A stretch of 36,563 bases of DNA from an uncultured bacterium (GTDB taxonomy: Bacteria; Patescibacteriota; Gracilibacteria; BD1-5; UBA2023): positions 1-36,563 of the forward strand of contig CAIVSN010000153.1 of the NCBI GenBank assembly GCA_903908595.1, given 5' to 3'. Below the pieces are notes generated by a model. It searched no databases. It saw only the letters and a program-made list of their open reading frames with translations, and was not told the origin of the DNA. Every line of letters starts with the position of its first letter. Position 1 is the stretch's first letter. A program made the position numbers and the translations under genes. Of the stretch, positions 4,081-29,591 are shown in pieces.

Positions 4081-6456
4081 TTAGTACTTTTTCTCCACCT
4101 TCGTCCCGTTGAGATAATAGGGGATAATCGTCTTATAATCCCACTTCTTGACGGTCGCGAAATACGTCGCTCCGATACCGGAAATCCCGACCCCGTGTCA
4201 GGCTTGAGCCTTGCCTTCGCCACCCGGATCCGCGACGGATTGGAGGTAGGCGATATCCTGGCAGGTCGTCGTGGCGGGCAGCTCTTTCTTCGCGACCCGG
4301 GCGTTGCAGTATTCGAGCGCGGAGAGGGTCCTTCCGCTCGATTGGCTGAAATACCATGGCTTGATGGGTTTTCCCTGGTACGTGATGATTTCCCCTCTGG
4401 TTTCCTTCGCGTACTGGATCGTGGAATCGGAGCGTTTTTCATACCCGTATCCGAGATATTTCTGGAAAACGTCCGGATCGTCCGATCCGTCGTAGGGTTT
4501 TCCGGGAAATTTGCGGTAGTCCGGACTCGTGTAGAACATGGCGTAGCTCCGGGCGGCGACGAGGATGGTTTTGGCTTTCTCGGCGTTTTCCCCGTTGCTG
4601 AATTCCGCGAGGCCCCGGAGATAGAGTTCGAGCGGGATCTCGTTGATGGCGATCAGCTTACCGTCTTCGACCCGGATTTCGATTTTCCCCCGGAATTCGT
4701 TGTCGTTATATTTTTTCTCCTTGTCCCAAGCGGGTATCCGTATCCAGTTGTTGATCCGGACGACCGTGGCACCGAGGGAAACGGTCTCGGTCCGGTATTT
4801 TTTGCCGCCCATGGTGGTCTCTACCTTGTTTCCGACTTTCTTTACGGATATTTTGTCGAATGCCACTTTTCCGGATTTTTTGTCCCAGCCGAGCACCGGG
4901 TTTCCTTCGACGGCTTCCAATTCTATTTTTTTCAGGACCGGTACGGAGAGCTTGATTCGGATGTTCGGTCCGTCGTTTGTGGCGACGTTCGGGGTCGCGG
5001 GATTGGTTTTGGGATCGGTTCTCGGGTTCACTATTACGATCGGTTTGGCCTTCTTGATGGTTTCCGGCCGGATCGTCGGATTGGCGTTGACGAGGTATCC
5101 TTTCGACGAAGCGTTCAGTTTTGGCAAGAGGCGGTCGTTGATTTCCGCGTACAGGTTGGCTCCGGGGCACGAGGTGAAGCCGACGTCCCGATGTCCCACG
5201 AGCCCCTTCATCTCATAATCGTGCGTCATGCATTCCTCGTCTACTTTGCAGGCTTTGTGCCCCGTCAGCGTGGTATTGGTATCGATCCCGTATTTTTTGG
5301 AAAGCGCGGTAAGGAATTTTTCGAGCGTCGCTTTCTGTTCCTTGACGAGTTTGTCCTTTTCGTAATTCCCGATGACGCTCACGCCGACCGTCCCCCGGTT
5401 GTTCCAGCTCGCGTGGGCGCCGACCGCGTAATCTCCGCCGGCCCGTCCCTCGTATACCACGCCCCGCTGGCCCACGACGAACTGATAGCCGATGTCTCCC
5501 CAGCCGCGAACGATGGTATGGTAATAATAAAAGGACCGTATGAGTTCCTCGTCGGAGAGCGATTTGACGTTGTCTTCCGCGGTATGGTGCACGACCATCT
5601 GCCGGACGCTCGCGGCTTTCTCTATCGGCCAGACGAGATCGTGGCCGTTTTCTTTCCAGATGATTTCGCTGACCCTGGATTGTTCGGGGAATTTTTCTTC
5701 GAGGCTGGCTTCGATCGCGATATTTTTCGCCAGTTGTTTTTTGGCGGCCTCGGTCGGCTTGGCAGCGGATTGTTTCTTAAAAATGTTTTTCCAGATTTCG
5801 CTGTCGGCATACCGGAGGTTTTCGTCCGCTCCCCATTCCGCGCGAGATACGATCGGAAACGCGCTTGGCGCGGCATGGGCCGTTTTCGCGAAGGCATCGG
5901 GATCGTAGGCGATTTTGCCGACGGAGCTCCGGGTATCGAGCGAGACCAGGTGGAGAACGGGATGGGTCAGGGTTTCGCAGCCGGAGCATTCTACCCGGAT
6001 TTCGTCGGTCGGTTCGAAGTGGATTGGCGCCGTGAAATAGGCTCCCCGTTCGGTTTCGTCGCCGGAGAGTTCCAAATCGGCATGTTTTTCCGTTCCGTTC
6101 GAGAAGATGGCGAAGGTTACGGCGTCTTCGCGGTCGATTTGGCTTTCCGTCTCCAATTCCACGACGAAGCTGTTCTTCGGGGATTCCAGTTTGACCGACG
6201 TAGCGAGCGCCAGTTGGCGGTATTCGTTCGCGTAGGTGTATTGGGTTTTCCATTCGATGGAAGTCGCGACGGGGGAGAGGTAGGGGGCGAGCAATACGGC
6301 AATCACGAATTTCGCGAGAAGCCCGTAAAAACGCGAACTCCTCGCCGATTTTTCCGCTCCTCGTTCAACGTGCGGATGCACGCCTCGCTTCGGTGCTCAA
6401 AATCGGCTTCGGATTTCATCGTTTTTACGGGCTTCTCGTTTTACAGGGGTTTTCAT
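4081..6456 (-). CDS. N-acetylmuramoyl-L-alanine amidase (PGRP/Amidase_2) fused to SpoIID/LytB domain
   Basis: 791 residues, predicted exported cell-wall enzyme. A hydrophobic signal/anchor helix is at about residues 46-62. The PGRP/Amidase_2 domain runs from about 204 (SRAEWGADENL) to 445, with zinc-ligand motifs VVHHTAED (about 288-295) and GHRDVGFTSCPG (421-432). The SpoIID domain covers about 605-780 (LYLRGLAEF, AARSYAMFY, FSQSSGRT). Under the standard code the protein would stop inside the SpoIID hallmark GHGVG; here that first Gly is UGA (4198-4200) and the protein ends at TAA 4081-4083. SpoIID proteins cleave denuded glycan strands, so one chain joins stem-peptide removal to glycan cleavage. 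Residues about 7-47, before the signal helix, are encoded by palindromic element copy A1. The ATG at 6456 is only 27 bp from the start of the divergent gene, so a later start is possible. Confidence 0.9.
6315..6438 (-). repeat. Palindromic element A, copy 1 (in-frame in the amidase/SpoIID gene)
   Basis: A 124-bp element with perfect 19-bp terminal inverted repeats (cgagaagcccgtaaaaacg and its complement) around an 86-bp core. The core has its own nested dyad ending in a tip hairpin, cgtgc-ggat-gcacg. It is read in frame with the host gene as NDEIRSRFGAPKRGVH followed by VERGAEKSARSSRF, including one UGA. Five further copies lie in the window. The strand given is the strand on which it is translated. 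Confidence 0.9.
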
Positions 6457-6483
6457 TTTGCAAAGGGGGGTGAGTTGAATAGT

Positions 6484-7347
6484 ATGCAGGCAGTAGTAAT
6501 ATCGAATTATATGGCACTCAAGTCCGAAATCAAAGACTTTGTTCGAAAAGTCCTCTTGCTTTGAATCCTGCTTTCCTGTGTAATCAATTTCTTGTTTACC
6601 TATTTTTCCAGTTTTTCGGATTGAAACGAAGCATACGCAAACCAGAACGAATTACAATTTCGAAAAGCCGACGTTCCGTATCTTGGAAACGTCGGGGTGG
6701 CGCTCTCGCTCAATGTCGGGCTCTCGAAAACCGTAAAAGACGGCGCCCCGGTCCGGCTTTTTTCCGACGTGATCCCGCTTTCCAGCATACTTGCCGACAA
6801 GACGACCGGACGCGACAAGATCATCGCGTCCCACATGATCGCCGCGCAGGAATACATCAACGTGCTCCAGATGGACGTAGGCAAGACCCTCGATCAGTCC
6901 GTCGACCGGGGAGCCATGCTCGAAAGCATCATCGACGGCCTCAAGTACCGGGGCAACAAGACCAACGAATACCTGAGCTCCCTCGTCAGCCAGCGCGCGG
7001 AACTCCAATCGGCGCTCGACGCTTCCACCAAGAACATCAATACGCTCAAGTCACAGCTCTCGGCCAGCTATCAAAAAATGGATTACGACGGTACCCAGAC
7101 GTCGCTCGACGCGTACTTGGTCGAGAAGAACAACGAAATCTATGCCCGGTCCTACATCGTGTTCCTCGACAAATTTTCCGCGATGTATACTTCGCTCAAC
7201 GCCTACAACCGCAAATTGCTCGACACGCTGACCAACAACAAGGAAGCGCTGATCAAGAACGTCACCGTCGTGATGCCGGACAGCGGAGACGAGTTCCTGA
7301 ACAAGCTGGAACTTCTCAAGCAGGAAGGGGATCTTCCGGCCAACTAG
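6484..7347 (+). CDS. Exported or membrane-anchored protein of unknown function, mostly alpha-helical
   Basis: 287 residues with two in-frame UGA codons read as Gly near the N-terminus (LLLGILLSC and FSDGNEAYA). A hydrophobic segment (about residues 22-42, VRKVLLLGILLSCVINFLF) looks like a signal peptide or anchor. The rest is polar and probably helical (SASYQKMDYD, VEKNNEIYARS, NRKLLDTLTNNKEAL), without a family motif I recognise. The start ATG 6484 is preceded by a strong purine-rich ribosome-binding site (AAAGGGGGGTGAG, about 9 bp away), which is unusual for this window; ATG 6511 is an alternative. It ends in TAG and is followed by a clear terminator, so it is probably monocistronic. It is divergent from the amidase gene, which may hint at an envelope role, but that is only inference. 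Confidence 0.8.
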
Positions 7348-7384
7348 TATCGGGACCGTTGCCTATTGACAATTCCAAATTTTT

Positions 7385-7415
7385 AAAAAAATCCGGGTAA
7401 ATTCCGGATTTTTTT
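7385..7415 (+). terminator. Rho-independent terminator after the exported protein gene
   Basis: Stem AAAAAAATCCGG, loop GTAAATT, stem CCGGATTTTTTT: 12 paired bases with a terminal T run, 37 bp behind the TAG stop. The A/T-rich flanks could make it work in both directions. Confidence 0.85.
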
Positions 7416-7442
7416 GGAGAAATTCCGTGACGGTCGTATAAT
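7414..7442 (+). promoter_or_regulatory. Promoter for the desaturase gene
   Basis: TTGGAG at 7414-7419 and a perfect TATAAT at 7437-7442, 17 bp apart, lie directly behind the terminator and 25 bp before the ATG. Confidence 0.6.
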
Positions 7443-7467
7443 CCCCGCGTTTTTAACGCACGAACCC

Positions 7468-8676
7468 ATGAACCTCTCGAAATACCATCTCCCCGTGTGA
7501 ATCTACCTGGTGCTCAACCCGCTGATTTCCGTCTTGTTGGCTGCCGCGTACTACCATTACGTCGGATTTCATGCCGGAATCCTCGTCTTCGCCTTCGTTT
7601 TCGCGGCGCTGACCAACCTGAGCATTACCGTCGGATACCATCGCCTGTTCTCCCACCGGAGTTTCGAGGCGCATCCGGCCGTGAGATTTCTCCTCCTGCT
7701 CGTGGGGACGAGCGCCTGGCAGTGACCCGTGCTCAAGTGGGCGAGCGACCACCGGATCCACCACCACCGGATCGATACCGCCGGCGACCCGTACGACATA
7801 GGCCGGGGATTCTGGCACGCGCACATGGGCTGGATGTTCCTCCGGGAATCCATCGATCTTCCGATACGCGCGCCGGATTTGCAAAAAGACGCCATGCTCC
7901 GTTTCCAAGAACGGTACTATGTCCCGCTCGCGATTCTCACGGGATACCTGCTACCGGCCCTGCTGACCTGGCTCATGTTCGGGGATTTTTTCGGGGGACT
8001 GATCGTCGCGGGAGGCATCCGCATCGCGCTGACGCAGCAGAGCACGTTTTTTATCAATTCGCTGTGCCACTATGTCGGCTCCCGTCCGTACGACGCGACG
8101 ATTTCCGCGCGCGATTCCTGGCTCATGGCCATCCTGACGCACGGGGAAGGGTATCATAATTTCCATCACGCGTTCCAGTTGGACTACCGCAACGGCATCC
8201 GGTGGTACCAGTGGGACCCGACGAAGTGGACCATCTACCTGCTATCGATTGTCGGAGCCGCCAAAAATCTCCGGACCATTCCCGCGGAAGCCATACTCCG
8301 GGCCCGGCTCCAGGTGGACGAGTCCGTCATCGCGAAACGCGGACAGATTACCGATTCGCTCAAGGGCCTCAGGGACAAGATCCTCGGCGCCCAGAAGCAG
8401 CTGGCGAAACTCACGAACGAATATTCTCGAATCAAATCCGAATACCGGGAACGGAAACTCCAGATCGAGCGGGACTACCGAAATCGGAAACTGGCCCTCG
8501 GAGCGGCGTATTCGTCAAAAAAAATCGAACTGCAAGCGGAATACCGGAGGATTTCCGAAGAAATTACCGACTGCCGGAACCGGAAAATCGCGGAAATCCG
8601 CCGGGATATCAAGCTCACGAGGATAGAATTGTCCGGGATGCTGGCACAATGGAAAGTCCACCGTTCTTTCGCGTAA
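7468..8676 (+). CDS. Acyl-CoA/fatty-acid desaturase (delta-9 type) with a C-terminal coiled coil
   Basis: 402 residues. Membrane di-iron desaturase that would introduce a double bond into an acyl chain. The three histidine boxes are present: HRLFSH (58-63), HRIHHH (95-100) and GYHNFHH (228-234), with hydrophobic segments between them. Two UGA codons read as Gly: residue 11 and residue 86 in SAWQGPVLKWASDHR, where Gly is conserved in the family. Under the standard code this would look like a broken gene. From about residue 281 the chain becomes a long charged coiled coil (AKLTNEYSRIKSEYRERK, EEITDCRNRKIAEI) that ordinary desaturases lack. Start ATG 7468, 25 bp behind a TATAAT promoter. Stop TAA, then a hairpin. 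Confidence 0.9.
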
Positions 8677-8689
8677 AAACGGAAAATTG

Positions 8690-8706
8690 ACGCATTTTGC
8701 GTTTTT
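8690..8706 (+). terminator. Probable terminator after the desaturase gene
   Basis: Small hairpin acgca-ttt-tgcgt followed by a T run, 13 bp behind the TAA. It is nested in a wider imperfect dyad (ttgac...gtcaa). Confidence 0.5.
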
Positions 8707-8882
8707 GTCAACGCACAAGGTTTGCATTGGAAAGAAAAATATGGTGCAATGGGTACATGAACTTTTGCAAATTTGCCCCTATGCTTGCCCGAATCTTCCC
8801 TGCATTCTCCCAGTTTCCCCGAGAAATAGCGTTTTTTTTGAGAAATTGCTTCGTACGGACGTCTCCCGTGACGCTTGCGAAA

Positions 8883-11204
8883 ATGAATTTTTTGAGGATA
8901 TTCGTCCTCGTTTTGGTGGCAATGGTAGGATGGGCGGGGATTTCGGTGGGGTATCATGGGGACGGGGAGGTCGGAGATGGCGGCAATGTGGTGAAGGAAT
9001 TGGCGTTGGGAGATTCGGCTTGGGCGGTAGAACCTGGTACGGGAACCACTACCAAAGGAGCTACAACCCCCGACAAATCCAGTTCCAGCCTCGTCGTCGT
9101 TCTCAACGCCCTCCTCAACGTGATGTACGCCCTCCTGACTCCGCTCTTGTTGCTTGCCGGCTGGCTCCTGACGCCGGACTGGGCGTTCGGGGAAATATTT
9201 GGATTGCGGCCCGTAATCCACGATCTCTGGATCCTGATTTCCAATATCGTCTACATCATTTTCGCGTTTCTCCTCGTAACGATGGCGTTCATGAACATTT
9301 TCGGGGCGGAAGGGAATACCTGGGCCATCCGGGCAAAGCTCCCCAAACTGATCGTGGGGATCATCAGCGTCCCGTTCACGTGGTTTTTCGTCAGCGCCAT
9401 CGTTTCGCTGTCTTCCATTTTGACCGCTTCCGCCATCCAATTGGCCGGAGATCTCGCCCCGACGGACAGTTCGGAACTGGAATTGTCCATACCGAAGAAA
9501 TGTACCATCAATTTTGAGGCATCCGTGTCCGGTACTGCGGCAACCCCTGCCGCCGGCGGAGCCGCCGCCAAACCCGGATCAAAATTTTTGGATTGTCCCC
9601 CTTCGACGGAAAAAAAGCCTTTCAAGGAGCTTTTCAAGTCAAGCGATGCCTTCGGTATCGTGAGCTACTACGCGTACGGGGTATTCAAAATCGACAAGTA
9701 CAAGGAGATCACCTGATTGAATCTCGGTTCCATCCAAAGCGTCGTGAGCCTCGGGGTGAACATGATCATCGCCATACTGATGTTCGTCATGTTTTTCCTG
9801 ATCATCATCGCATTGGTGTTTGCGCTATTCACCCGGGCGCTCTATTTCTGGGCGATCGCGGTATTTTCCCCATTGCTGTCGCTCAGGTATTTTTTCGATG
9901 GGAAACTCTGAGTGGGGGACAGTTGGCTGTCGGTGACGAAAATTATCGGCTTGGCCATGGTTCCGGTATACGTCGCCGCCGCGCTGTCGTTCGGATTGCT
10001 GTTTACCGCGATGGTCTCTTCCGCGACCTTCCAATCGGGTACGACGCAAAAGAGCGATTACATAGAAATTAAGGACAATACCATAACGATGTTCGGTACG
10101 GAATTCACGGTGGTAGGCACTCCGGTAGGACCCACCCCGGTCGCGGATCTCAAGAAGCTCGGCGGCGGATTCATCGGCCAGCTCGTCATGCAGATGGCCG
10201 CACTGGGAATCCTGTGGTTTGCCGTCATGGCCGCGCTCAAGAGCAGTGAGGTCACCGCGGAAGCCGCGAAGCCGGTATCGGAGTTCGGAGGCCAGATCGG
10301 GGGACTGATCAAGAGTTTGCCGAAGTATGCTCCGATTATTCCGACGTGACATGGGATGGCGTCGATGGAGTCGATGTCGCGCATACCTCGAGGCATAACT
10401 TCTGCACTGGAATGAAATGCTATGACACAGGGCAATAAACTATCAAAAAGCATTAATGATGCATTACATATCTCAGATAAGTCTTCGCAAAAAACAACTG
10501 AAGCACTAGAGTATTTGTCAAGACTGCCGAAACCGGCTTCAGCACCTGCTTATATTGAAGAATTGAAAAAAGTAACGGCAATGGCCGGATCTACGATTGC
10601 TAATTCTTGAGAAGAAAATCAAAAAAATGTTTATCGAGCCATGGTTAATAAAGCAGACCATCTTACAAAAGAACAGCAAAAATCTCTTCAAGATAAAATT
10701 ACGGCACTCAATGGCACGGATCCAAATATGACTAATTTTTTGAAGGAGTATTCACATGTGCTTGGTGGTGATCATGCTCATTTCAATGAGGGGAGAGAAC
10801 TTGATGCGAACACTAAGGCGAGCGAGGCAGCCAAGGCCAATGGACAGGCCGCTCCTGCGTCTCCGGCAGCTGCTCCAGCTCCGGTAACCGCCTTGAATGT
10901 AACCGTAAACAACAAACCGATCGAAATGCATTCGTTGACACCTGCCGCTGGCGCTCCGGTAACGCAGTTGACCAAAGAATCCATGGATAAGCTTAGTACT
11001 GAAGTGTCTGCGGCTACTTCCGGATTGGCGGCAGGCAGCGAAAGCATGAAAGCGGAATTTTCGAAAATCCAAGCCGCACTCAAGGAGGGGCTCACCAAAG
11101 TTGGAATAACGAGCTCGGACCAACAAAACGCGATTCTCAATCAGATAAAGCCGGGATTGGGATTGCCACCAACCGTAGCCAACAGACCTCTGCCCAAAAG
11201 TTAA
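8883..11204 (+). CDS. VirB6/TrbL-like polytopic membrane protein (type IV secretion/conjugation family)
   Basis: 773 residues from ATG 8883; an in-frame ATG at 8757 would add 42. Five UGA codons (for example KEITGLNLG, DGKLGVGDS, IIPTGHGMAS, ANSGEENQK) join what look like five separate fragments. Start 8883 gives a signal-like helix (FLRIFVLVLVAMVGWAG). Then come several transmembrane segments, including LLNVMYALLTPLLLLAGWLL, SNIVYIIFAFLLVTMAFMN, IISVPFTWFFVSAIVSL, a very hydrophobic MFFLIIIALVFALFTRALYF, and VPVYVAAALSFGLLFTAMV. This order of helices resembles the VirB6/TrbL channel subunits often seen in CPR genomes; the assignment is by pattern only. The C-terminal third (from about 10420) is soluble, partly AT-rich, and has an Ala/Pro-rich linker. 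No other secretion genes are in the window. Confidence 0.75.
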
Positions 11205-11221
11205 ATCCCTAGGCTACCACC

Positions 11222-11857
11222 ATGACCCCATTAGCCCATCCTAACGATTCCCACCGGAACCCCTCCCTCGATCTCATCCTCTCTCGAACGCCTCCAACCT
11301 TCCCCGAAGCCACTGTAACGCTCCTTGAAGGTCTCCGCAACGAACGACTCAAAACCGGAACCCCCAACGTCTCCGACCGCACCGGAAGATTCCTGTACCA
11401 CCTCTGCCGCGACCGCGGGCACTCCCATATCCTCGAACTCGGCACGGCGAACGGATATTCCGGCATCTACCTTCTCGAAGCGATTTCGGGTTCGAAGTCG
11501 GGCCATCTGCTCACCATCGAAATCGACCGAGACGATTACCTGAATGCCAAGCGCAACCTCCATCCCTACCGCGACCACGTCACGCTCGTCCGCTCCGACG
11601 CGACCGAGTTCCTGCGGTCCGCGGGGGACATGCGGTTCGACCTGATCTTCATCGACGCCCTCAAATCCGCCACGCTCGGGCATTTTCTCCTGGCCCGCAA
11701 ACTGCTTAATCCCGGAGGCACGATCGTCGTTGACGACGTAGTCAAGTACTCGGGGAAAATGTCGGATTTCTACGCGTATCTCGAAGCGAATGCCATCCCG
11801 TACGCCATCGTCATGACGGATCCGGACGATGGCGTCATGGTTCTGGAACCCCGTTAA
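11222..11857 (+). CDS. SAM-dependent O-methyltransferase (class I, Methyltransf_3/24 type)
   Basis: 211 residues. Rossmann-fold methyltransferase with motif I HILELGTANGYSG (about 69-81), an acidic residue at the end of strand 2 (LTIEID), motif DLIFIDALKS (about 140-149) and LLNPGGTIVVDDVV (about 160-173). This pattern is typical of catechol/caffeoyl-CoA-type O-methyltransferases, where DALK and DDV contribute to metal and substrate binding. The substrate cannot be told from sequence. It starts 17 bp behind the VirB6-like gene. Its last codons and TAA stop lie in an extra left arm of palindromic element copy A2. Confidence 0.85.
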   Translation: MTPLAHPNDSHRNPSLDLILSRTPPTFPEATVTLLEGLRNERLKTGTPNVSDRTGRFLYHLCRDRGHSHILELGTANGYSGIYLLEAISGSKSGHLLTIEIDRDDYLNAKRNLHPYRDHVTLVRSDATEFLRSAGDMRFDLIFIDALKSATLGHFLLARKLLNPGGTIVVDDVVKYSGKMSDFYAYLEANAIPYAIVMTDPDDGVMVLEPR

Positions 11858-11867
11858 AACGCGAACT

Positions 11868-11989
11868 TGAACCCCGTTAAAACGTGAACTCCTCGTCAAA
11901 TTCTGCGTTCCTCGCTCAATGTACCTACCGGTACACCTCGCTTCGGTACTCGAATTCGACTTCGGATTTCATCGTTTTTTCGGGGTTCA
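11868..11989 (-). repeat. Palindromic element A, copy 2 (intergenic, with a duplicated arm)
   Basis: Arms tgaaccccgttaaaacg and cgttttttcggggttca (two mismatches in 17) flank an 88-bp core. The tip hairpin is tgtacc-tacc-ggtaca. A second copy of the left arm (gaaccccgttaaaacg plus cgaactt) stands just before it at 11846-11867 and supplies the TAA stop of the methyltransferase gene. It lies on the side of the gene where a terminator would be. Confidence 0.88.
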
Positions 11990-12056
11990 CGGGGTGGGTG
12001 GGGACCGAATATCGCCCCTCACGAATATCGAACGATTTTTCGAAAGACCTACCCCT

Positions 12057-12138
12057 CGAGACGGGGAATGGATTAGGTATTCCCGAGCTTGTCCGGCGCG
12101 GTATGGACCGAGGGAATTCATAATCCATGCCCGTCTCG
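12057..12138. repeat. Palindrome family B, copy 1
   Basis: Outer arms of about 27 bp (starting cgagacggg and ending cccgtctcg, with a few mismatches) enclose the 28-bp centre at 12084-12111, which begins gagcttgtccggcgcggt. The centre differs from copy 2 by one base, while the arms are unrelated in sequence. Confidence 0.8.
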
Positions 12139-12190
12139 CACGCCGCACGCCCGGAACCATCGAATGATTTTTCGAAACATAAACCTCCAG

Positions 12191-12267
12191 CGAGCCCATG
12201 GATATTGGGTTTCCCGAGCTTGTCCGGCGCGGTCTGGACCGAGGGAAACCCAATATCCATGGGCTCG
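12191..12267. repeat. Palindrome family B, copy 2
   Basis: Perfect 25-bp inverted arms (12191-12215 and 12243-12267; the left arm starts cgagcccatggatattggg) surround almost the same centre as copy 1 (gagcttgtccggcgcggt, then ctggaccgag). Confidence 0.88.
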
Positions 12268-12316
12268 CCCGAACCGCACATCCCCGAAAAATCCCCACCG
12301 ATTTCCCAATTCCAAT

Positions 12317-12343
12317 TTGAGAATTTCGCATTTCCCCTATAAT
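12317..12343 (+). promoter_or_regulatory. Probable serS promoter
   Basis: TATAAT at 12338-12343 with TTGAGA at 12317-12322. The spacer is short (15 bp). The leader before the serS ATG is about 50 nt. Confidence 0.45.
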
Positions 12344-12402
12344 TTCCCCGTGTTTCACCGCAAGTGCCTCATCCGAGACAACATTCTCCTATTTTTTCCA
12401 CC

Positions 12403-13665
12403 ATGATCGATATCAAAATCCTCCGCTCCCATCCCGAGCTCATCCGCGATTCCATCGCCAAGCGAAACCTCAAGGTAGACCTCGACGCGTTTTTGGCGCT
12501 CGATGCCATGCGCCTCTCGGAACGGCAGCAGATGGAGGACCTCCAAGCCCTCCGCAACCGGGTTTCCAAAGAAATTCCCACGATAGCGGATACCGCTCAG
12601 AAGCAGGCGAAAATCGCGGAAATGAAGGCCGTTGGAGAGCGGATTGCCACTATCGAAAGCAACCTCGCGTTCACGGAAGAAACGTACAACGGCATGCTCT
12701 ACAGCATCCCGAACTTCCTGGATCCGACCACCGCCATCGGCGCGGACGAATCCGGGAATACCGTGGAATCCAAATTCGGCGAACCGACGAAGTTCGATTT
12801 CGTGCCGAAGGCGCATTACGACATCGGGGAAGCCCGAGGGTGGATCGACATCGAGAAGGGCGCGGAAGTCTCCGGGGCGCGGTTCTGGTACCTCAAGGGG
12901 GATCTGGTATTGCTCCAGTTCGCCATTCTCCAATACGTCATGCAGGTTATGGTCGCAAAGGGCTTCCTACCGGTAATTCCTCCGTTCCTCGTGCGCGAAC
13001 CCGCGATGTACGGCACGGGATTTTTCCCGGCGGACCGGGCGCAGATCTACTCTGTCAACCCCGGGGAAGACAACCTGTTCCTCATCGGGACCTCCGAAGT
13101 CTCGCTCACGAGCTACCACGTCAAGGAAACCGTCAATGTCGATGCTCCGATCAAATACGTCGGGTATTCCCCGTGTTTCCGTCGCGAAGCCGGAACGTAC
13201 GGCAAGGACATGAAGGGAATCCTCCGCGGCCACCAGTTCGACAAGATCGAGATGGTCTGCTTCTGCAAGCCCGAAGATTCCCAGAAACTCCACGACGAAA
13301 TGGTCGCCGTCGAGGAATCCATCTGGCAGTCGCTCGGCATCCCGTACCAGAAGATCAACATCTGTTCCGGCGACCTCGGCAACCCCGCCATGAAAAAATA
13401 CGATCTCGAAGCCTGGATGCCCGCGCAGGAACAATACCGGGAAGTCACGAGCTGTTCGAACATCGGCACGTTCCAATCCCGTCGCCTCGAAATCAAGTAC
13501 CGGAAGGCCGACGGTTCCAGCGATTTCGTCCACACGCTCAACGGCACGACCATCGCCTTCTCCCGATGCCTCATCGCGATCATGGAAAATTACCAGAACG
13601 AGGACATGACGGTAAGGATTCCGAAGGTGTTGCAGCCGTTCATGAGCGGAAGGGAGGTGTTGTAG
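12403..13665 (+). CDS. serS: Seryl-tRNA synthetase
   Basis: 420 residues, the normal length for bacterial SerRS. It charges tRNA-Ser and tRNA-Sec. The N-terminal coiled-coil arm that clasps tRNA (LSERQQMEDLQALRNRVSKE and following) is followed by the class II core: motif 2 with CFRREAGTYGKDMKG and motif 3 with NGTTIAFSRCLIAIMENYQ. The ATG at 12403 fits the family start (MIDIKILRSHPELIRDSI). No in-frame UGA is needed. Stop TAG at 13663-13665. Palindromic element copy A3 begins six bases behind the stop and could end transcription. Confidence 0.97.
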   Translation: MIDIKILRSHPELIRDSIAKRNLKVDLDAFLALDAMRLSERQQMEDLQALRNRVSKEIPTIADTAQKQAKIAEMKAVGERIATIESNLAFTEETYNGMLYSIPNFLDPTTAIGADESGNTVESKFGEPTKFDFVPKAHYDIGEARGWIDIEKGAEVSGARFWYLKGDLVLLQFAILQYVMQVMVAKGFLPVIPPFLVREPAMYGTGFFPADRAQIYSVNPGEDNLFLIGTSEVSLTSYHVKETVNVDAPIKYVGYSPCFRREAGTYGKDMKGILRGHQFDKIEMVCFCKPEDSQKLHDEMVAVEESIWQSLGIPYQKINICSGDLGNPAMKKYDLEAWMPAQEQYREVTSCSNIGTFQSRRLEIKYRKADGSSDFVHTLNGTTIAFSRCLIAIMENYQNEDMTVRIPKVLQPFMSGREVL

Positions 13666-13671
13666 AGACCT

Positions 13672-13799
13672 CGGAAAATCCCGTTAAAACGATGAAATCC
13701 GAAGTCGAATTCGAGTACCGTAGCGAGGCGTACCGGCAGGTACGTTGAGCGAGGAACGGAAAATTCGACAAGGAGTTCGCGTTTTAACGGGATTTTCCG
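13672..13799 (+). repeat. Palindromic element A, copy 3 (intergenic, directly behind serS)
   Basis: Perfect 20-bp arms (cggaaaatcccgttaaaacg and complement) around an 88-bp core with tip hairpin cgtacc-ggca-ggtacg. The frame used by the intragenic copies is closed here by TAA in the arm and TAG in the core, so this copy could not sit in a gene. It probably acts as the 3' hairpin of serS. Confidence 0.9.
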
Positions 13800-13807
13800 C
13801 AAAATAT

Positions 13808-13836
13808 TTGCCCGAAGTGGAAGCTTCGGGTATACT
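13808..13836 (+). promoter_or_regulatory. Promoter with an internal dyad (possible operator) for the TIM-barrel gene
   Basis: TTGCCC (13808-13813) and TATACT (13831-13836) are 17 bp apart. The spacer is almost filled by an inverted repeat, cccgaag-tggaag-cttcggg (13811-13830). A second AT-rich tract (ctatatacttataaat) lies before the ATG at 13862. Confidence 0.6.
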
Positions 13837-13861
13837 GTCACTATATACTTATAAATAAGAG

Positions 13862-14611: not shown

Positions 14612-14661
14612 TCAGATCCGCTTAAGTCTCTAAGCATACAATTAGGACCGTATTTGACTGG

Positions 14662-15300: not shown

Positions 15301-15356
15301 ATTGACCCATATAATATGAGTATTTACCGGTTTCCAAAATGATTTGCAATTTCTAT

Positions 15357-15384
15357 TTGCCAAGCGCGCTCACTTTTATATAAT
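15357..15384 (+). promoter_or_regulatory. rplY promoter
   Basis: TTGCCA (15357-15362) and a perfect TATAAT (15379-15384) with a 16-bp spacer, 31 bp before the ATG. The short leader shows no Shine-Dalgarno sequence. Confidence 0.65.
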
Positions 15385-15414
15385 TCCCCGGTCTAAATTC
15401 TCGTTTTTATATAT

Positions 15415-16059: not shown

Positions 16060-16072
16060 TTCCCGATTTACG

Positions 16073-18049: not shown

Positions 18050-18144
18050 ATGGGAGTCAGGCATTGCCGGCACGAGCGCCATTCTTTCCGTGACCTGTTT
18101 TTTTTCGTAAGATATCCCTAACCAAATCTGGTCCGGCATATTCC

Positions 18145-19638: not shown

Positions 19639-19673
19639 GGGAAATTATCGAACGGTTGCCCCCAATATACTCC

Positions 19674-22337: not shown

Positions 22338-22426
22338 CGCAGGTAAGGATTATCCGAATTTGCACAAAGTATTTCAACGGGCGTGACTGGAAAAACCGGG
22401 AAACCGATTCCTATTGGGCATAACCT

Positions 22427-23356
22427 CTATCCGAGGAATTCCGCGTATTTTTCCCGGAGCAGTTTCCGGATCATTTCGGGGGTTCCCAGCTCTTTCTTAA
22501 GGGAAATCCGGTGAAAGAGAAAGGGGACGACCAGGTCGATCCCGTCCTCGGGAATCACGAAATCCCGGTCCGCCAAATATGCGTTCGCCTTCATGGCCCG
22601 AACGAAAATATCGAGCCCGCGCGGGGAAATCCCGAAATGGAAGCTCTCTTCGTTCCTGGACCAGTCCGCGAACTTGATGAGCTTTTCGAGGAGGGAATCC
22701 TTCACGAAAATCTGCCTCGCTTCCAGTTGCACCTGGGTCAAGGTATCTTTTCCAATGAGCGGCTTCAGGCTTTCGATGGTGGTTTCCAGGTCGGTTTTCC
22801 CGCCGTTTCGGAGCATGTCCAGTTGGACTTCGTCGGCGGGATATCCCACCTTGACGAAGCAGCAGAACCGATCCCGCTGCGCTTCCGGAAGGGGAAAGGT
22901 CCCATGGTATTCGATCGGGTTCTGCGTGGCGATGATGAGGTGGTGCCGGGGGAGTTCGTATTCGACCCCCGAAAGGGAAATTTTCCGTTCTTCCATGCAC
23001 TGCAGGAACGCGCTCTGGGTCTTCGGGTGCATCCGGTTGATCTCGTCGATGAGCACGAGCTCATTGAAAATCGGGCCCTTCCGGATGGAAAACGATTTCT
23101 GCCCGAAGTCGTAGACTTCGCCGCCGAGAATGTCCTGCGGCAGGCTGTCCGAGGTCCCTTGGATGCGCGAAAACGAGTATCCGACCAGTTTGGCGAACGC
23201 TTTCGCGATGGTGGTTTTCCCGATGCCGGGGAAGTCCTCGATGAGGATGTGCCCGTGGATGAGCAAGGCGATTTCGAACGGCCTCGCCACCTCCGGCTTA
23301 TGGAAGACGAAGGGGAGGAACGCGGTTTTGAAGTCCTGGAATTCTTGGTGGATCAA
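22427..23356 (-). CDS. MoxR-family AAA+ ATPase
   Basis: 309 residues. Chaperone-like ATPase of the MoxR group. Walker A is DFPGIGKTT (41-49), Walker B is LVLIDEINR, followed by the sensor 1 segment IIATQNPIEY and LPEAQRDRF, and a C-terminal lid with FGISPRGL and DFVIPEDGIDLVVPFL. The start is a TTG at 23356; no ATG or GTG lies between it and the upstream in-frame stop. It sits 24 bp behind a methyltransferase gene and 89 bp before the DUF58-transglutaminase fusion. The MoxR/DUF58/TgpA combination is a known conserved module. Confidence 0.93.
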   Translation of the reverse strand: MIHQEFQDFKTAFLPFVFHKPEVARPFEIALLIHGHILIEDFPGIGKTTIAKAFAKLVGYSFSRIQGTSDSLPQDILGGEVYDFGQKSFSIRKGPIFNELVLIDEINRMHPKTQSAFLQCMEERKISLSGVEYELPRHHLIIATQNPIEYHGTFPLPEAQRDRFCCFVKVGYPADEVQLDMLRNGGKTDLETTIESLKPLIGKDTLTQVQLEARQIFVKDSLLEKLIKFADWSRNEESFHFGISPRGLDIFVRAMKANAYLADRDFVIPEDGIDLVVPFLFHRISLKKELGTPEMIRKLLREKYAEFLG

Positions 23357-23380
23357 GGGGTGGGGGGTTGGAAGGTCTCT

Positions 23381-24262
23381 TTATGACGCAAAACGATTAT
23401 ATGGAAACGGGCCAACTGGCAAAACGTTAACGTAATTATGGGTTTTCCGGAGTTCGGCGACAAAAAACCGCCCCGTTTCGAGAAACAGTATATCCCAGTT
23501 CTCCTCGGCATATTTCATAATCTTGCTGATGCTGATTTTTTCTTCTTCGTCGTTCACGTTGCACACGAATACCCGGCCTTCCGGAGCGAGCACGCGTCCG
23601 ATTTCCGTGAAGAGTTCGGGAATCCGAACCGTGTCCTTCGTGATGATATGATTGAGGAAAATCACGTCTTGGGATGCGTCAGCGATACCTTCCAGATATT
23701 CCCCGAACGAAGGATTCCGACGGATGTGGGGGTGTTTTTTTTCGTCGAAACCCCTCCAAAGTATGGTGTCGGCGTAGATTCTTTCCGATTGTAATCCGTT
23801 TTTTTGGAGCAGGATCCGGATCCGTTCTTCGAGGTTCGGAGTCTTGAGGCGTTCTTCTATGAAATCGATCCTTTCGGCAATCCGCAGGAGGTTCTGATCG
23901 AGATGGGCATCATGGTACCCATCCGCGAAAATGGGATCGGCGACGGTAATGCGTTTCGCATAAAATTCGAGCAGCCAAGGGAGACCGCCGAATCCGCCGC
24001 CGAGGTCGAGGACGGTTTTTCCTCAGAAATGGCGTCCCCGCAATTCCGGATTTCACTGGTCGATGAACGAAAGGAATTCATTGGCCGTAATGCTGGGGGC
24101 GACGTGCAGTTTTTCTCGTATGGCTTCTTGGCGTGGGTCGAGGAGGGAAGATACTTTGCGTTGGTTTTCTGGGATATTGAAAGCGATTCAGAACGGGAGT
24201 CCGGTAGGGGGGAGTCCGGTTTGCAGGTCTTGCGGAGCGGTATTCATTTGTGCGTGATCCAT
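23381..24262 (-). CDS. Class I SAM-dependent methyltransferase
   Basis: 293 residues from ATG 24262 (a second ATG is at 24247). Motif I is GGKTVLDLGGGFGGLPWLL, with the first Gly from UGA, followed by RITVADPIFADGYHDAHL. Later come FLNHIITKDTVRIPELFTEI and VLAPEGRVFVCNVND, the usual strands 4 and 5. Several UGA glycines in the N-terminal half (LPFGIAFNIP, IDQGNPELRG, HFGGKT) hide it completely under the standard code. The substrate is unknown. It is the first gene of a probable operon with the MoxR ATPase, the DUF58-transglutaminase and the spermidine-synthase-like gene. Confidence 0.8.
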
Positions 24263-24345
24263 GGAGGGCGAGGGGTTGGAGAAATGGGTGGGATGGGTTT
24301 TTCCATCTTAGTCTCCAAACAAAAATACGTTGCATCTTTTCCTCG

Positions 24346-24433
24346 TACGTATGAGGTATCAGGCAAGGCGGCTCTTACGCAGTGGAGTAGGCTCCACAAG
24401 TATGAGGCAACGATGTCTGATGGCCCATACGTA
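24346..24433. repeat. Imperfect long dyad with an inner hairpin
   Basis: Arms tacgtatgaggtatcag and ctgatggcccatacgta (13 of 17 pairs) enclose a centre with a perfect hairpin, gtggag-tagg-ctccac (24382-24397). It could be a small structured RNA, a 5' leader of the methyltransferase operon on the minus strand, or a worn palindromic repeat. No T run follows. Confidence 0.45.
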
Positions 24434-24516
24434 TGATGGGAAAGTGTAAGTTATTTTTGATTGGAGACTTGGACACTCTACTAGGAATTCGTGCTAATTT
24501 CCAGTTGGATTTAGAA

Positions 24517-24632
24517 ATCTCTGCAAAATGCGAACCCCTTGTCAATTTTCCCGCTCCTCGTGCGACGTACTTGCCAGCATGCCTCACTACGGTGCTCGAA
24601 ATTGACTTCGGATTTCATCATTTTGCCAAGAG
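24517..24632 (-). repeat. Palindromic element A, copy 4 (degenerate, behind the GHMP-like gene)
   Basis: The core is recognisable (cgctcctcgtgcgacgtac and cttcggatttcat) and 88 bp long between gcaaaatg and cattttgc, but the arms and the tip hairpin have several mismatches. It ends one base before the TAG of the upstream minus-strand gene, the same placement as copies 2 and 3. Confidence 0.75.
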
Positions 24633-24633
24633 G

Positions 24634-26331
24634 CTAAATCCCCCCGATTTTTTGAATGCTGAACAATTCAAAGTCCACTTCCCCGAATTTGATGACGAAA
24701 TCCACTGCCGAACCTTGGCAATGCATCCTCAGGTTGCTTCCGAGCCTCCGATTCACGGTCCGCATGAGCGGGCTGAGGATTTTGGACATCATTTCGCTTT
24801 TACTCTGGGTATAGCTCGAAGTCGGAAGGTCCGAAGCCGAGATTTCCCGTGCTCCCGTACTGATGAATTTGTCGAGGATATCGATGGTGAGCTGCTGTGA
24901 GAGAATCTCTTTGGAACTCACCTTTTCGCCGTCAATGTAGATTTTCCTGGCTATCTGATCCAGGAGGAGCCGGCCTTTGGAAAGCCCGTTCGAGTCGTAT
25001 TTCCGAAGGACTTCCCGGGAATCCGCCGATCGGAACAGATAGCCTTCCGCTACCGAGTGCTTTGCCACGTATTTCTGCCGGATATCCTGTTCGATGCTGA
25101 CTTCCGCCTTGAAGTTGGTTGGAACGATGGCTCCGTCGAACACGATATTGAGTTCGGGATACCGTTTCTGGGCTTCGCGCATGGCGAGATAGAGATTTTT
25201 CCGAGCGACTCCCCGCCGCCCGTACCAAATGTACGATCCGCCGTTCGTGGTACTGTAGAGCGGAAGAATCGCGATGTCCTGGATATCGAGCAATTCTCGG
25301 GAAATGAGGATTTTCCACAGGTGCGCGAGAAAGTCCGATTTCCCGTCCAATTTTTCAAAGGAATGGGCCAGCTCGTTGCCGTATTTGAGGAATTCCCCGA
25401 TTTCGGGCGAATTGTGGACGTCGAACAGGTTGTCGAGCTGCGAGAGGAAGTGGGCGTTTTCCAGGGCCAGGACCTGTTTGAGAGAATCGGAATAGTTCTT
25501 GCTGGAAAGACGGATGCCGAGTTGGTTCGCGCACCAGAGGGAACCGTTTTTGGCTTCGCTCTGCCCGGCCTTGAGTTCCGCTTTGCGGTGGACCATGGGA
25601 ATTCCCGAATAAATGACCCCGTAGTCGAGCGTATCCCGGAGATTCTTTTCTATTCCCGGCAATTTCCGCAGCTGGCGATCCTTGCCATTGCGCCCGTTCC
25701 GGAATACGAATACGCTCGGCGCCGCTTCCGCATAGAGGGTTTGGTACGAATTCTGCCCGTTGGACATGGGGGATTTGAGGATGGATTCGATATTTTTTCC
25801 GATTTCCGCGATTTCGCCCCGGTCATCGCTCATGAAACCGTGGGAAAGGGGAGAAGCCGTGTCGTTTTTGAGATAGTGGATCATGTATCCGAGCACTCCC
25901 GAGAACGTCCCCGAAAAGCCGAGCGAATATCCCCGGGGCGATTCGGACAGCACGTCGATGGTGACCCCGTTGGTTTCCAGGATCGGATGCAAGTAGCCCT
26001 TGAGGTATAATAAAAGCTCTTCGGCGTTATCGATGAGGTGTTCGAGTCATACGGACTCGAAATCCTGGGATTCGAACGTGAAGAGCTTAGCGGTTCCGAG
26101 GCTGACGGTACCCGGATTGCCAGTGAGCCGAAATCCAACCAGGCATTGGAGGTTGATTTTTTGCCGGGCGACGATATTGTCGCCGATTTTTTCGGATTCC
26201 AGTATGGGATTGAGGGGGATGGAGAATTTTCCCGAGCCGACGAGCGAATGCTCCCGATAGAATTCTTCGTAGACCCTGGGGGAGTCCGCCACGAAATTTT
26301 TCGTGGCAAGGGGCGAGAACGGTTGTAACAT
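24634..26331 (-). CDS. Possible GHMP-family small-molecule kinase
   Basis: 565 residues with one UGA Gly (DFESVGLEHL). The pattern ESPRGYSLGFSGTFSGVLGY (about 128-147) looks like the P-G-x-G-L-G-S-S phosphate-binding loop of GHMP kinases, though the Ser-Ser is altered. A second segment, KSPMSNGQNSYQTLYAEAA, resembles the S-G-x-Q-D region, and LYSTTNGGSYIWYGRRG could be the C-terminal glycine-rich motif. An extra approximately 150-residue C-terminal part has no motif I know. The assignment is tentative: no single signature is canonical. Start ATG 26331 (MLQPFSPLATKNFV); TAG stop at 24634, next to element A copy 4. Confidence 0.5.
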
Positions 26332-26537
26332 AGATGAGATAAGAATGTTACAATGTATGCTATAGCCTTTTCGGGATATCCAATATTTTCTTGCGTGCCG
26401 ACGGGGGGTCGGATTGCGAGGCATAGGGGAGATTCTTTTCGGAAACCGCAATGCATAGCAGTTGTTATCGTATAAAAATGTCAAGGCGTTTTCTTTTTGA
26501 AATATGGCGATTTTAGGAAAATACCATGGAAATCCGG

Positions 26538-26568
26538 CATTCTTGAACACATAATTTGTTCAAGAATG
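26538..26568. repeat. Perfect 12-bp inverted repeat
   Basis: cattcttgaaca and tgttcaagaatg with a 7-base loop. No T run on either side, so it may be a protein-binding site or an RNA hairpin rather than a terminator. Confidence 0.55.
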
Positions 26569-26608
26569 GGGGAAATTCGGCAGGGAAAGCATATAATTTT
26601 AGATTGAA

Positions 26609-26636
26609 CTGCCGAAATCCTATCGATTTTCGGCAG
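26609..26636 (-). terminator. Possible terminator of the nusA-to-RNA-methyltransferase gene run
   Basis: Stem ctgccgaaa / ttttcggcag with an 8-9-base loop. On the minus strand it is followed by an A/T-rich stretch with only a weak T tract. Confidence 0.4.
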
Positions 26637-26696
26637 TATGTTTGTCAAATTGCCCGGTGATATTTTCCCGTAGTGACGTATCGGCTTTACCCCGTT

Positions 26697-26768
26697 TGAA
26701 CGCTTTCATGGGATCGCGTTAGGCGGACACGGATGGGTCCGTGATTCGGAAGCATAAGCGCCCGTTCA
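26697..26768. ncRNA. Candidate structured RNA (unknown)
   Basis: Outer pairs tgaacg / cgttca enclose the perfect hairpin cacgga-tggg-tccgtg (26728-26743) and smaller dyads. The length (72 bases) recalls a tRNA, but the central loop is 4-6 bases and no T arm exists, so it is not one. Either strand could be transcribed. Confidence 0.25.
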
Positions 26769-26803
26769 GGACCTCAACATACAAGCTCTAGGGCATATCG
26801 GTT

Positions 26804-28264
26804 TTACTTCCAATACATGTACTTCGGCAGCTGCGATTTCAGCAATCCGTTATGAACCGTTCCGAATCCCAGCGGAGCGCCGTTCCAGAGGACTTGGACC
26901 ATTCCAGACTCGTCAGTATCGCCGGTCGCGACCGGTAGCCCGCGGAGGAAATCCCGTAACATGTCCGGTTTCAGTTCGATTTTTGACAGGTTCCGGTGAA
27001 CGAAGTGGACCCCGAGCGGCGCTTGCGGTTCGAATACGTTCCCTTCGATCCGCCCGATGCGCATCCCGAACCGGATGGCGTATACCCGATCCAGTATCGG
27101 CGCGATATCGCCGGTCGATCGGATGAGGAGGATATCGTTCTTGTAGCGGTAGAGCTTCGCATCGGCCGGGAGTTCCGTACCGAGCGTTTCCAGGGCTTTT
27201 TCCACGGTTTCCAGGGCACGGTCGCACAGTACGCCAATGTCGCGATTCGGCTTGAAGGAAACCTCGCCAAAACGCGAACTCCTCGCCGAATTTTCCGTTC
27301 CTCGTTCAACGTACGAATGTACGTTTCACTTCGGTACTCAAATTCGGCTTCGGATTTCATCGTTTTGGCGAGGTTCCGGGGTGTATGCAATTATTTTTTT
27401 TGAAATCTTCGCGACGAAAAATCCTCCGGCGATTTCGGTGTGGGGCCAGAACCGTTTGGAGAAAACGACTTCGATGTCGTCACCGAATTCTTCCTTCGCG
27501 GCTTCGAGGACTTCTTCATTCTCCATCCGGTTGAGGGTACAGGTGGAATATACGAGCATGCCGCCCGGCTTGAGCGAGGTCAGTCCCGCGATGAGGAGCT
27601 TTTTTTGGAGCCGGGCAATCGTTCGGACGTTTTTGACGTTCCAATACCGGAGGCTTTCCGCGGCCTTGTAGCCGATGCCTTCGCCGGAGCAGGGCGCGTC
27701 GAGCAGGACGAGGTCGAAGCATTCCGGGAGCTCCCGGAACTGTACCCCGTTCATGTTGGTGACCGCGATATTGAGGAGCCCCATCCGCTCGATGTTTTCG
27801 AGGAGCGGCACGATGCGTTCCTTATTGAACTCGTTCGCGAAAACGAACGCGTTCGGGTAGTGTTCCGCGATTTGCGTCGTCTTGCCTCCCGGACTGGAAG
27901 CGATTTCGAGGATGCGGTGGGGTTCCGGATGGACGGCGCCGTCCGCGAGCAGCCAGACCGACATCGAGGCCGAGAGTTCCTGGATATAATAGTCTCCGCG
28001 CAAGTGTTCCGGGTTGGATCCGAGCGCGATGGTCGTGTCCTCCCGGTCGACATGGAACACGTGGCCGTTCGGCGTCGGTCCGAATTTCCACCCGACGGTC
28101 TCTTTATCGCTGACGAATTCGCCGATATCCCGCTTATTCGTGTTGATCCGGAGGGTTTTTTTTAGCGGGCGGAGCAGGCTTTTTTGGAACGCCCCGAATC
28201 CGTCCGCGTCCTCGCTGAAAAATTCGTTTTTGAAATATTCGAGGAACGCGGGATTGATGGACAC
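26804..28264 (-). CDS. RNA m5C methyltransferase (RsmF/NOP2/Sun family) split by an in-frame palindromic element
   Basis: 486 residues if UGA is Gly. The catalytic domain (1-296) has the SAM loop EIASSPGGKTTQ, the motif IV cysteine C192 in LLDAPCSGEG and the motif VI cysteine C242 in YSTCTLNRMENE, the pair diagnostic of m5C RNA methyltransferases. It ends with GGFFVAKISKK. Residues about 297-335 are element A copy 5, read in frame through two UGA codons. The C-terminal PUA-like RNA-binding part follows (EVSFKPNRDIGVL to PKYMYWK), with the typical GVHFVHRNLSK and APLGFGTVHNGLLKSQLP. Without recoding, the gene would look split into two. The start is GTG 28264, 13 bp behind smpB. It probably modifies rRNA or tRNA. 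Confidence 0.88.
27260..27375 (-). repeat. Palindromic element A, copy 5 (in-frame inside the RNA methyltransferase gene)
   Basis: 15-bp perfect arms (aacctcgccaaaacg and complement) and an 86-bp core with tip hairpin acgtac-gaat-gtacgt. It is translated as NDEIRSRIGVPKGNV followed by HSYVERGTENSARSSRF, two of the glycines from UGA. It sits exactly between the catalytic and RNA-binding domains. Confidence 0.92.
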
Positions 28265-28277
28265 GGGAAGGGAGAGG

Positions 28278-28736
28278 TTATATGTGGACGCGCATTGCGG
28301 AGCGAGCCTCTTTTTCGAGGGTCCGGTTCTTGAGCACGTTCCGCTTGTCATGCTCCGCGCGACCGCGTACCAGAGCGACTTTGACCTTGATGAGCGTGCC
28401 CTTGAAGTAGAATTCCGTCGGGACGATCGTAAGCCCCTTTTCTTTGACCTTGAGCGAGAGCCGGAGGATATCCTTCCGCTTGAGGAGGAGTTCCCGGTCG
28501 CGCGTCGGCGTTTGGTGAAGGCCCTTGGTTTCCCCCTTGTAAGGACTGATGTGGGCTCCAAGGAGGATTGGCCGTCCGCTCGTGAGCGAGACGTGGGACC
28601 CCTTGAGATTGACCCCGCCGGACCGAACGCTTTTGACTTCCGCTCCGTTAAGAATGATTCCCGCTTCGAAGTTCTCCAGGACTTCGTAGTCGAAGAGGGC
28701 TTTTTTGTTTTGCGCGATAGTGGAAGTGGTCGCCAT
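28278..28736 (-). CDS. smpB: SsrA-binding protein SmpB
   Basis: 152 residues, normal length. Binds tmRNA and carries it to stalled ribosomes. Typical segments: NKKALFDYEVLENFEAGIIL near the start, GAEVKSVRSGGVNLKGSHV, and ISPYKGETKGLHQTPTRDRE followed by LLLKRKDI. The C-terminus has LVRGRAEHDKRNVLKNRTLE, the basic tail that enters the mRNA channel. ATG 28736 gives the family start. It lies 36 bp behind uppS. The tmRNA gene itself is not in the window. Confidence 0.97.
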   Translation of the reverse strand: MATTSTIAQNKKALFDYEVLENFEAGIILNGAEVKSVRSGGVNLKGSHVSLTSGRPILLGAHISPYKGETKGLHQTPTRDRELLLKRKDILRLSLKVKEKGLTIVPTEFYFKGTLIKVKVALVRGRAEHDKRNVLKNRTLEKEARSAMRVHI

Positions 28737-28772
28737 GATGGTAAAAATATTTGGTTTCGCCGGTCGGAATGC

Positions 28773-29591
28773 CTATTTCCCGAAGTTCCGTTTGGCGCTT
28801 CGCAGGGATTTCAGCGAGGCGTCGAATTCGGCTTCTTGGAAGTCCGGCCAGAGCGTGTCGGTAAAATAGTACTCGGAATATTCCGCTTGGTAAAGGAAAT
28901 ATCCGGAATGCCGGATGTCGCCACCGGTCCTGACGATCAGGTCGGGAGGCGGGAACGCGCCGGTGTCGAGGTATTTGAGGAAGGATTTTTCGTCGAGCGT
29001 ATCGGGATCCGCTCATTCTCGGATGGCTCGCTTCACCGCTCGTACGATTTCGTCCTGGCCGCCGTAGCCGATCGCGAGGATGAGGATCATTTTGTCGAAG
29101 GAGGCGGTGCGGTCGCGGAGTTTGCGGAGGGAATCTCGGAGGGTCTGCGGCAAGAGTTCCTTATCGCCGACCATCTCGAACCGGATGTTGTTTTTGACGC
29201 AGCTCGCCTCGATTTTTCCAAGGAATTCCTCGAATAGGGCGTAGAGATAATTCAATTCCTGTTGGCTCCGTTCCAAGACGTTCTTTTTCGCCAAGGCCCA
29301 GAAACTGACGATTTCGATTCCGTTTTTTACGCAGAGTTCCACGATTTCTTCGGTGGTTTCGGCTCCCCGATGGTGTCCGAGGTTCTTGGCGAGATTTTTG
29401 GCGGTGGCCCAGCGGCGGTTTCCGTCCATTATAAATCCAATATGCCGGGGAACTTCGTCAAAACGCGAACTCCTCGCCGAATTTTCCGTTCCTCGTTCAA
29501 CGTACGGAGGTACGTTTCACTTCGGTACTCAAATTCGGCTTCGGATTTCATCGTTTTTACGAAGTTCCGGGATTTTCGATGAAGTATTCAT
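28773..29591 (-). CDS. uppS: Undecaprenyl diphosphate synthase with an inserted palindromic peptide near the N-terminus
   Basis: 272 residues. Makes the C55 lipid carrier for peptidoglycan synthesis from isopentenyl and farnesyl diphosphates. The hallmark PRHIGFIMDGNRRWA is at about residues 49-63, with the catalytic Asp in MDGNRRW. GHHRGAE, FEMVGDKELLP, AIGYGGQDEIV and DLIVRTGGDIRHSGYFLYQ follow, ending near LWPDF. One UGA reads as Gly near the C-terminus (AIREGADPD). In most UppS proteins this hallmark lies some 40 residues nearer the start; here residues about 8-48 are element A copy 6. ATG 29591 (MNTSSKIPELR) lies 2 bp behind the stop of ruvX and is the only good start upstream of the element. 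Confidence 0.95.
29449..29568 (-). repeat. Palindromic element A, copy 6 (in-frame in uppS)
   Basis: Arms ggaacttcgtcaaaacg and cgtttttacgaagttcc (one mismatch) around an 86-bp core with tip hairpin acgtac-ggag-gtacgt. Translated NDEIRSRIGVPKGNV followed by PPYVERGTENSARSSRF. The core is nearly identical to copy 5, so the insertions are probably recent. Confidence 0.92.

Follow-up and report, generated by a model that had tools for sequence, protein, structure and literature searches.

The 36,563-nucleotide window analyzed here (positions 1 to 36,563 of contig CAIVSN010000153.1, assembly GCA_903908595.1) carries six copies, A1 to A6, of a palindromic element of about 124 bases, which is probably a non-autonomous gene-end hairpin repeat of Gracilibacteria, with a few in-gene copies translated by reading UGA as glycine. 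An earlier note on this DNA had described the three copies that lie in frame within proteins (A1, A5, and A6); these were confirmed, but in-gene copies are a small minority, and the usual place of the element, at the stop codons of genes and with a set orientation, had been missed. The element is primarily a gene-end element, of which those proteins hold strays, as follows from its placement at stop codons, its single orientation there, and the opposite orientation of the genic copies. Each unit is made of a core of 99 to 101 nt (AAAACGATGAAATCCGAAG...GGAGTTCGCGTTTT), conserved between copies, and of outer arms of 10 to 12 nt, and at least 131 cores were counted within about 1.14 Mb of the 2.4-Mb genome, in stretches mostly selected for containing matches. 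In the following, G000 denotes this genome, G001 and G010 two relatives, and L numbers individual loci. The copies in the window are:

A1, 6316..6437, minus strand: 99-nt core, arms GAGAAGCCCGTA/TACGGGCTTCTC; in frame near the N terminus of an amidase/SpoIID protein; one in-frame TGA
A2, 11869..11989, minus strand: 101-nt core; downstream of gene 11242-11854, usual orientation
A3, 13674..13797, plus strand: 101-nt core; about 8 nt past the stop codon of gene 12390-13662, rarer orientation
A4, 24513..24626, minus strand: 101-nt core; at the stop codon of gene 24636-26322, rarer orientation
A5, 27260..27376, minus strand: 99-nt core, arms GGAACCTCGC/GCGAGGTTTCC; in frame in a methyltransferase-PUA linker; two in-frame TGA
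A6, 29449..29568, minus strand: 99-nt core, arms GGAACTTCGT/ACGAAGTTCC; in frame near the N terminus of UppS; two in-frame TGA

Placement of the element at gene stop codons

About half of the copies in this genome have their start only a few bases from the stop codon of a neighboring gene. Read in the direction AAAACGCGAACTCC...GGATTTCATCGTTTT, 53 copies start at -10 to +3 nt from the stop of a coding open reading frame (ORF), compared to 3 in the other direction (p = 8e-13), and in the relatives 14 of 15 copies obey the same rule of stop codon and orientation. In two comparisons with an empty site (L058 with L087 and L086 with L177), the native stop was found at the element junction. In the window, the TAA stop of gene 11242-11854 comes from a partial element unit (about 11846-11870) located just before A2. 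This rule of single orientation at stop codons is a sharp and testable regularity, and in the literature searched we found no paper describing it, or such elements at all, in Gracilibacteria or other bacteria of the candidate phyla radiation.

Copies inside protein-coding genes

The mutual alignment of A1, A5, and A6 spans 124 nt, with an identity of 81 to 94%; the limits given above, which are approximate, were refined from their complementary arms. All three lie on the minus strand, each within an ORF that is open under code 25 and stays open only with TGA readthrough, and share a single reading frame (NDEIRSR...SARSSRF) with 1, 2, and 2 in-frame TGA codons, respectively, as had been claimed. 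Since the element gave 61 matches in the same genome, with a best non-self E value of 2e-37, a chance origin is excluded. The RNA fold of A6 reaches -57.3 kcal/mol, compared to -28.8 for shuffled sequences (z = -8.6). Pfam bore out the proposed identities of the host proteins:

4081..6456, minus strand: A1 host, N-acetylmuramoyl-L-alanine amidase with SpoIID (Pfam Amidase_2 and SpoIID); orthologues in 34 of 40 relatives
26804..28264, minus strand: A5 host, RsmF/NOP2-like rRNA methyltransferase (Pfam RsmB-F, 3.6e-37; PUA, 2.4e-6, only just above the curated Pfam cut-off); found in 40 of 40 relatives
28773..29591, minus strand: A6 host, undecaprenyl diphosphate synthase (UppS), 272 aa (Pfam Prenyltransf/UppS, 5.5e-64)

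The view that the insertions sit at tolerant places, and that orthologues do without them, held when the hosts were aligned with their orthologues. In the relatives, UppS begins with M-HIGFIMDGNRRW or similar, whereas here 47 residues stand between M1 and HIGF; the whole insertion thus measures 141 nt (47 aa) against the orthologues, which is longer than the palindrome alone and exceeds the 35 to 40 residues estimated before. In the sequence inspected, no in-frame ATG, GTG, or TTG occurs within the element or from the element to HIGF, and therefore, given ordinary start codons, translation of UppS must start upstream of the element. The inter-domain linker of the RsmF-like protein counts 48 residues here and 14 in G001, and the start context of the amidase gene, CCCCCCTTTGCAAA(A)TGAAA, is conserved in the G001 orthologue, which is devoid of the element. 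As a separate observation, the RsmF-like protein of G010 (L103, from another genus) carries a different insert, SPLSGGQNDITPLTRGDEGGF, at nearly the same linker, which looks like another in-frame translated repeat.

Outside these three hosts, four further genic copies complete a robust set of seven:

L039 (copy at 9804): GT-B glycosyltransferase, with the element between its two domains; the two halves are nearly contiguous in relatives
L166: AMP-binding enzyme, with the element after the N-terminal domain; compared with one relative
L220 (copy at 9974): ParA-like ATPase, with the element after the matched domain
L060: unknown protein with an internal copy; no orthologue found

The genic copies occur mostly at N termini, linkers, or domain boundaries, and orthologues without the insert were found for UppS, RsmF, the GT-B glycosyltransferase, and the AMP-binding enzyme. 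The earlier claim that the frames are open only because UGA is glycine stood for five of the seven (A1, A5, A6, L060, and L166), which need UGA as a sense codon, and failed for L039 and L220, which use a UGA-free frame; it follows that recoding helps but is not required.

Furthermore, the core measures 99 nt in all seven genic copies, while its length is a multiple of three in 35 of 111 others (p = 5e-4), and the orientation of all genic copies is opposite to that prevailing at gene ends (7:0 versus 3:53, p = 2e-7). Every genic copy that uses the NDEIRS frame has it open, compared to 27 of 103 others, where the usual breaks are TAG or TAA; this last contrast is partly circular, because openness helped to pick the genic copies, and the statistics of length and orientation are less so. 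On these sequence grounds, the insert is most likely translated as part of the host proteins.

Among the inspected copies flanked on both sides by coding sequence in different frames, none clearly disrupts a gene; the candidates looked like convergent genes, spurious matches to the core, or arrays. Six other potential genic cases are uncertain, since the real start may follow the element or the gene may be incomplete, and were dropped as unproven: L071 and L050, with a likely native ATG after the element; L065, a PriA-like fragment behind nrdR; and L044, L070, and L040.

UGA as a glycine codon

The reading of UGA as glycine in this genome is well supported, since a tRNA with anticodon UCA (L176, 9555-9633) presents a glycine-type acceptor end (GCGG...CCGC-U-CCA) and TGA encodes a conserved glycine in the AGHGVGISG motif of SpoIID in the A1 host. 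The gene for this tRNA adjoins that of tRNA-Gly(GCC), whose acceptor end is similar. Moreover, in the UppS of relatives TGA occurs at the conserved glycine of MHIgFIMDGN, and the frequency of TGA in predicted genes is about 5 per 1000 codons. Under code 25, an element copy has on average 4.4 open frames out of 6, compared to 2.5 out of 6 under the standard code.

Structure, copy number, and distribution

The outer arms, of a loose R4-Y4-G-K pattern, vary from copy to copy but are paired within each copy. In particular, at least 8 of 10 arm positions pair in 96 of the 132 copies examined (relatives included), and these 96 contain 80 distinct arm sequences, with at least two standard pair types at every position; exchanging arms between copies lowers pairing from 10.0 to 7.5 of 16. 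An origin of the copy-specific arms by inverted target duplication was rejected for UppS, where neither side of the empty site matches them; the arms look like a part of the element that is kept paired.

In some arrays the repeating unit corresponds to core, arm, and a short tail; tandem arrays were noticed at L051 (10800-11340), L045 (9176-9453), L063 (8581-8948), L077 (7978-8274), and other loci. The tails of the L051 array alternate in an A-B-A order, and just one tail has an arm that pairs with the stop-adjacent arm, a pattern suggestive of units added from elsewhere in the genome.

A search against genomes, which the earlier note had recommended, placed the element only in metagenome-assembled genomes of Candidatus Gracilibacteria; about 85,000 species genomes were scanned for an exact pattern, whose strictness would let distant homologues escape. 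Homologues were present in the genus of this genome and, outside it, mainly in a second genus of the same family. Certain copies share orthologous positions in G000 and G001, while others are lineage specific, with empty sites. At L077 (5826-5883) we also observed a shrunken remnant of the element, deleted in its center, where G001 (L081, 1599-1698) has a full copy. No match was found in viral contigs, phages, or plasmids, and an origin from any of these was rejected.

Two side observations concern the genome and the window at large. The genome measures 2.4 Mb, compared to 0.7 to 1.5 Mb in 39 relatives, with a contamination estimate of 5%, which may reflect a real expansion or a mixed bin. Positions 1 to 3990 of the window hold three tandem near-copies of a gene region of about 1.55 kb, with an identity of about 76 to 92%.

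Proposed explanation and alternatives

The explanation that we favor is a non-autonomous hairpin resembling repetitive extragenic palindromic (REP) sequences and Rickettsia palindromic elements (RPEs), which owes its placement either to the targeting of stop codons or to retention at gene ends as a 3'-end structure. The element would start at or near the stop codon, with its orientation fixed and no harm to the protein, and gene-end copies would most likely be retained as a harmless or mildly useful hairpin, possibly with a REP-like role at the mRNA 3' end or in termination. After multiplication in this genome, a small fraction of the copies would have landed in coding sequences, surviving where the length keeps the frame, TAA and TAG are missing, the orientation is the opposite one, and the site is an N terminus, a linker, or a domain boundary. 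There, the hairpin would most likely be transcribed and translated as about 35 to 47 extra hydrophilic residues, with UGA decoded as glycine by tRNA-Gly(UCA). Since no U-tract, clear target duplication, Y1 transposase, or Rfam family is associated with the element, its function and mobility are a matter of inference.

As regards the force behind the placement, it is a good possibility, although we would stop short of calling it probable, that the element is a functional gene-end hairpin (a terminator or an mRNA 3' protection) under selection, harmful inside genes in the gene-end orientation, so that only reversed copies survive. The reversal of the orientation bias between gene ends and gene interiors agrees with such a role, as do the remaining downstream spacers, mostly of at least 60 nt and unlike tight operon junctions, and the retention of some copies at orthologous positions in two species. 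However, no U-tract follows the element, which does not point to a standard intrinsic terminator, and the terminator scan calls neither A2 nor A3; convergent gene pairs show no enrichment of the element, and the genic orientation bias could stem from reverse frames encoding more hydrophobic peptides.

We would advance more tentatively that the element is a mobile one targeting T-A-R stop codons in one orientation, its leading purines rebuilding the stop, which would make it harmless by design and the in-gene copies off-target. The very tight spacing (-8 to +3 nt from the stop) and the strict orientation reported above, where ordinary terminator hairpins of the same genome start 0 to 27 nt past the stop, speak for such targeting, together with the excess of TAG at element-adjacent stops (38:15 versus 250:279, p = 8e-4) and the partial unit that furnishes the stop codon of gene 11242-11854. 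The lack of a target duplication, of an identified enzyme, and of a fixed target motif (GTAG is present in just 19% of copies) speaks against it, and selection for gene-end hairpins could yield the same picture. The broader proposal of an undescribed class of mobile palindromes, which land on stops in a fixed orientation and rebuild them, and whose off-target copies are kept translated because UGA is glycine, the reassignment having enlarged the habitat of selfish DNA, seems doubtful to us.

It is improbable that the insert is removed like an intron or bypassed by the ribosome in a byp-like manner, so that the proteins never contain the peptide. The hairpin is strong, and known bypass elements are likewise short hairpins in genes, but neither excision nor bypass would need the 99-nt cores (a length divisible by three) and the absence of TAA and TAG found in all robust genic copies, and the window is without an Rfam match. 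There is hardly any chance that the insert is a native part of the host folds, a reading refuted for UppS and the GT-B enzyme, given that the same DNA occurs at more than 130 sites and orthologues lack it.

Several observations weigh against the gene-end hairpin with translated genic copies. Within the window itself, A3 and A4 break the orientation rule, and the genic argument depends on seven robust cases, beside the six ambiguous ones, and in part on the circular open-frame statistic; removal or bypass of the insert is a further, if improbable, possibility, against which the conserved threefold length and the missing TAA and TAG speak. Furthermore, the element has no trailing U-tract, no mobilizing enzyme was found, and no clear target duplication emerged above the level of swapped flanks, although old copies could have lost it.

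Other candidates were discarded. Mobilization of the RAYT (REP-associated tyrosine transposase)/IS200 type was rejected since the genome has no Y1 transposase, and a known RNA family since no Rfam family matches the window. An attC-like recombination site was considered for the stop-codon placement, but here the core is conserved and the arms are variable, and the AAC/GTT order of the element is opposite to that of the attC consensus.

Comparison with known systems

Fungal mitochondrial GC clusters and double-hairpin elements are mobile palindromes of altered-code genomes, some of them in frame in a protein gene; they offer a possible parallel, the genome type and the code change being different. 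With bacterial miniature inverted-repeat transposable elements (MITEs; ERIC, Correia, and others; PMC10969869), the element shares a non-autonomous nature, short length, palindromic structure, and high copy number, but no target duplication was found and the ends differ in sequence between copies. Nor did a matching autonomous element emerge: among the repeat matches of about 30% of the genome, in a search that was not exhaustive, there were no noticeable half-elements on either side of an ORF.

We also observed a second palindromic repeat of about 170 bp, TATACCCA...TGGGTATA, with an apparent TA duplication, which by its look is an IS630-type MITE. It is nested in element copies at L067 (4280-4542), L074 (12506-12769), L072 (5999-6268), and L042 (13182-13435) and often abuts the other end of the element; its arms differ between copies and pair within a copy.

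REPs and the related BIMEs (bacterial interspersed mosaic elements) are GTAG- and CGTC-tagged palindromes of 20 to 40 bp (PMC3733652). Like them, the element is a dispersed palindrome located near gene 3' ends, sometimes supplying the stop (TAG in REPs), with some copies in ORFs and sometimes in arrays (PMC3733652). Different from REPs, it is about 124 bp long, and the GTAG end tag, present in 19% of copies compared to 7% in shuffled sequences, does not characterize it; the RAYT (Y1) transposase PF01797 was absent from G000, while 5 of 14 control genomes were positive.

For the in-gene copies, RPEs (Ogata et al. 2000, 2002) proved the right closest comparison, as the earlier note had proposed. 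To the extent that they are summarized in PMC10969869 and PMC3767692, RPEs have in common with the element a palindrome of about 100 to 150 bp, many copies, some of which lie in frame in unrelated proteins at tolerant sites, and a recurrent peptide. Unlike RPEs, the element belongs to an unrelated phylum, with most copies at stop codons in one orientation, a frame that often needs UGA as glycine, and arms that vary per copy. The CGTC that RPEs carry at one end (Di Nocera 2013, PMC3733652) occurs in 2% of copies, not above the shuffled level, and the strict pattern scan gave only Gracilibacteria, outside any Rickettsia or Wolbachia sequence family. Descriptions of palindromic insertions kept in frame come chiefly from Rickettsiales. 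The present element offers a second case, in a distant lineage where UGA is glycine, and with it a way to examine independently how selfish hairpins give rise to protein segments and whether codon reassignment raises the tolerance of genes to insertions (4.4 versus 2.5 open frames per copy).

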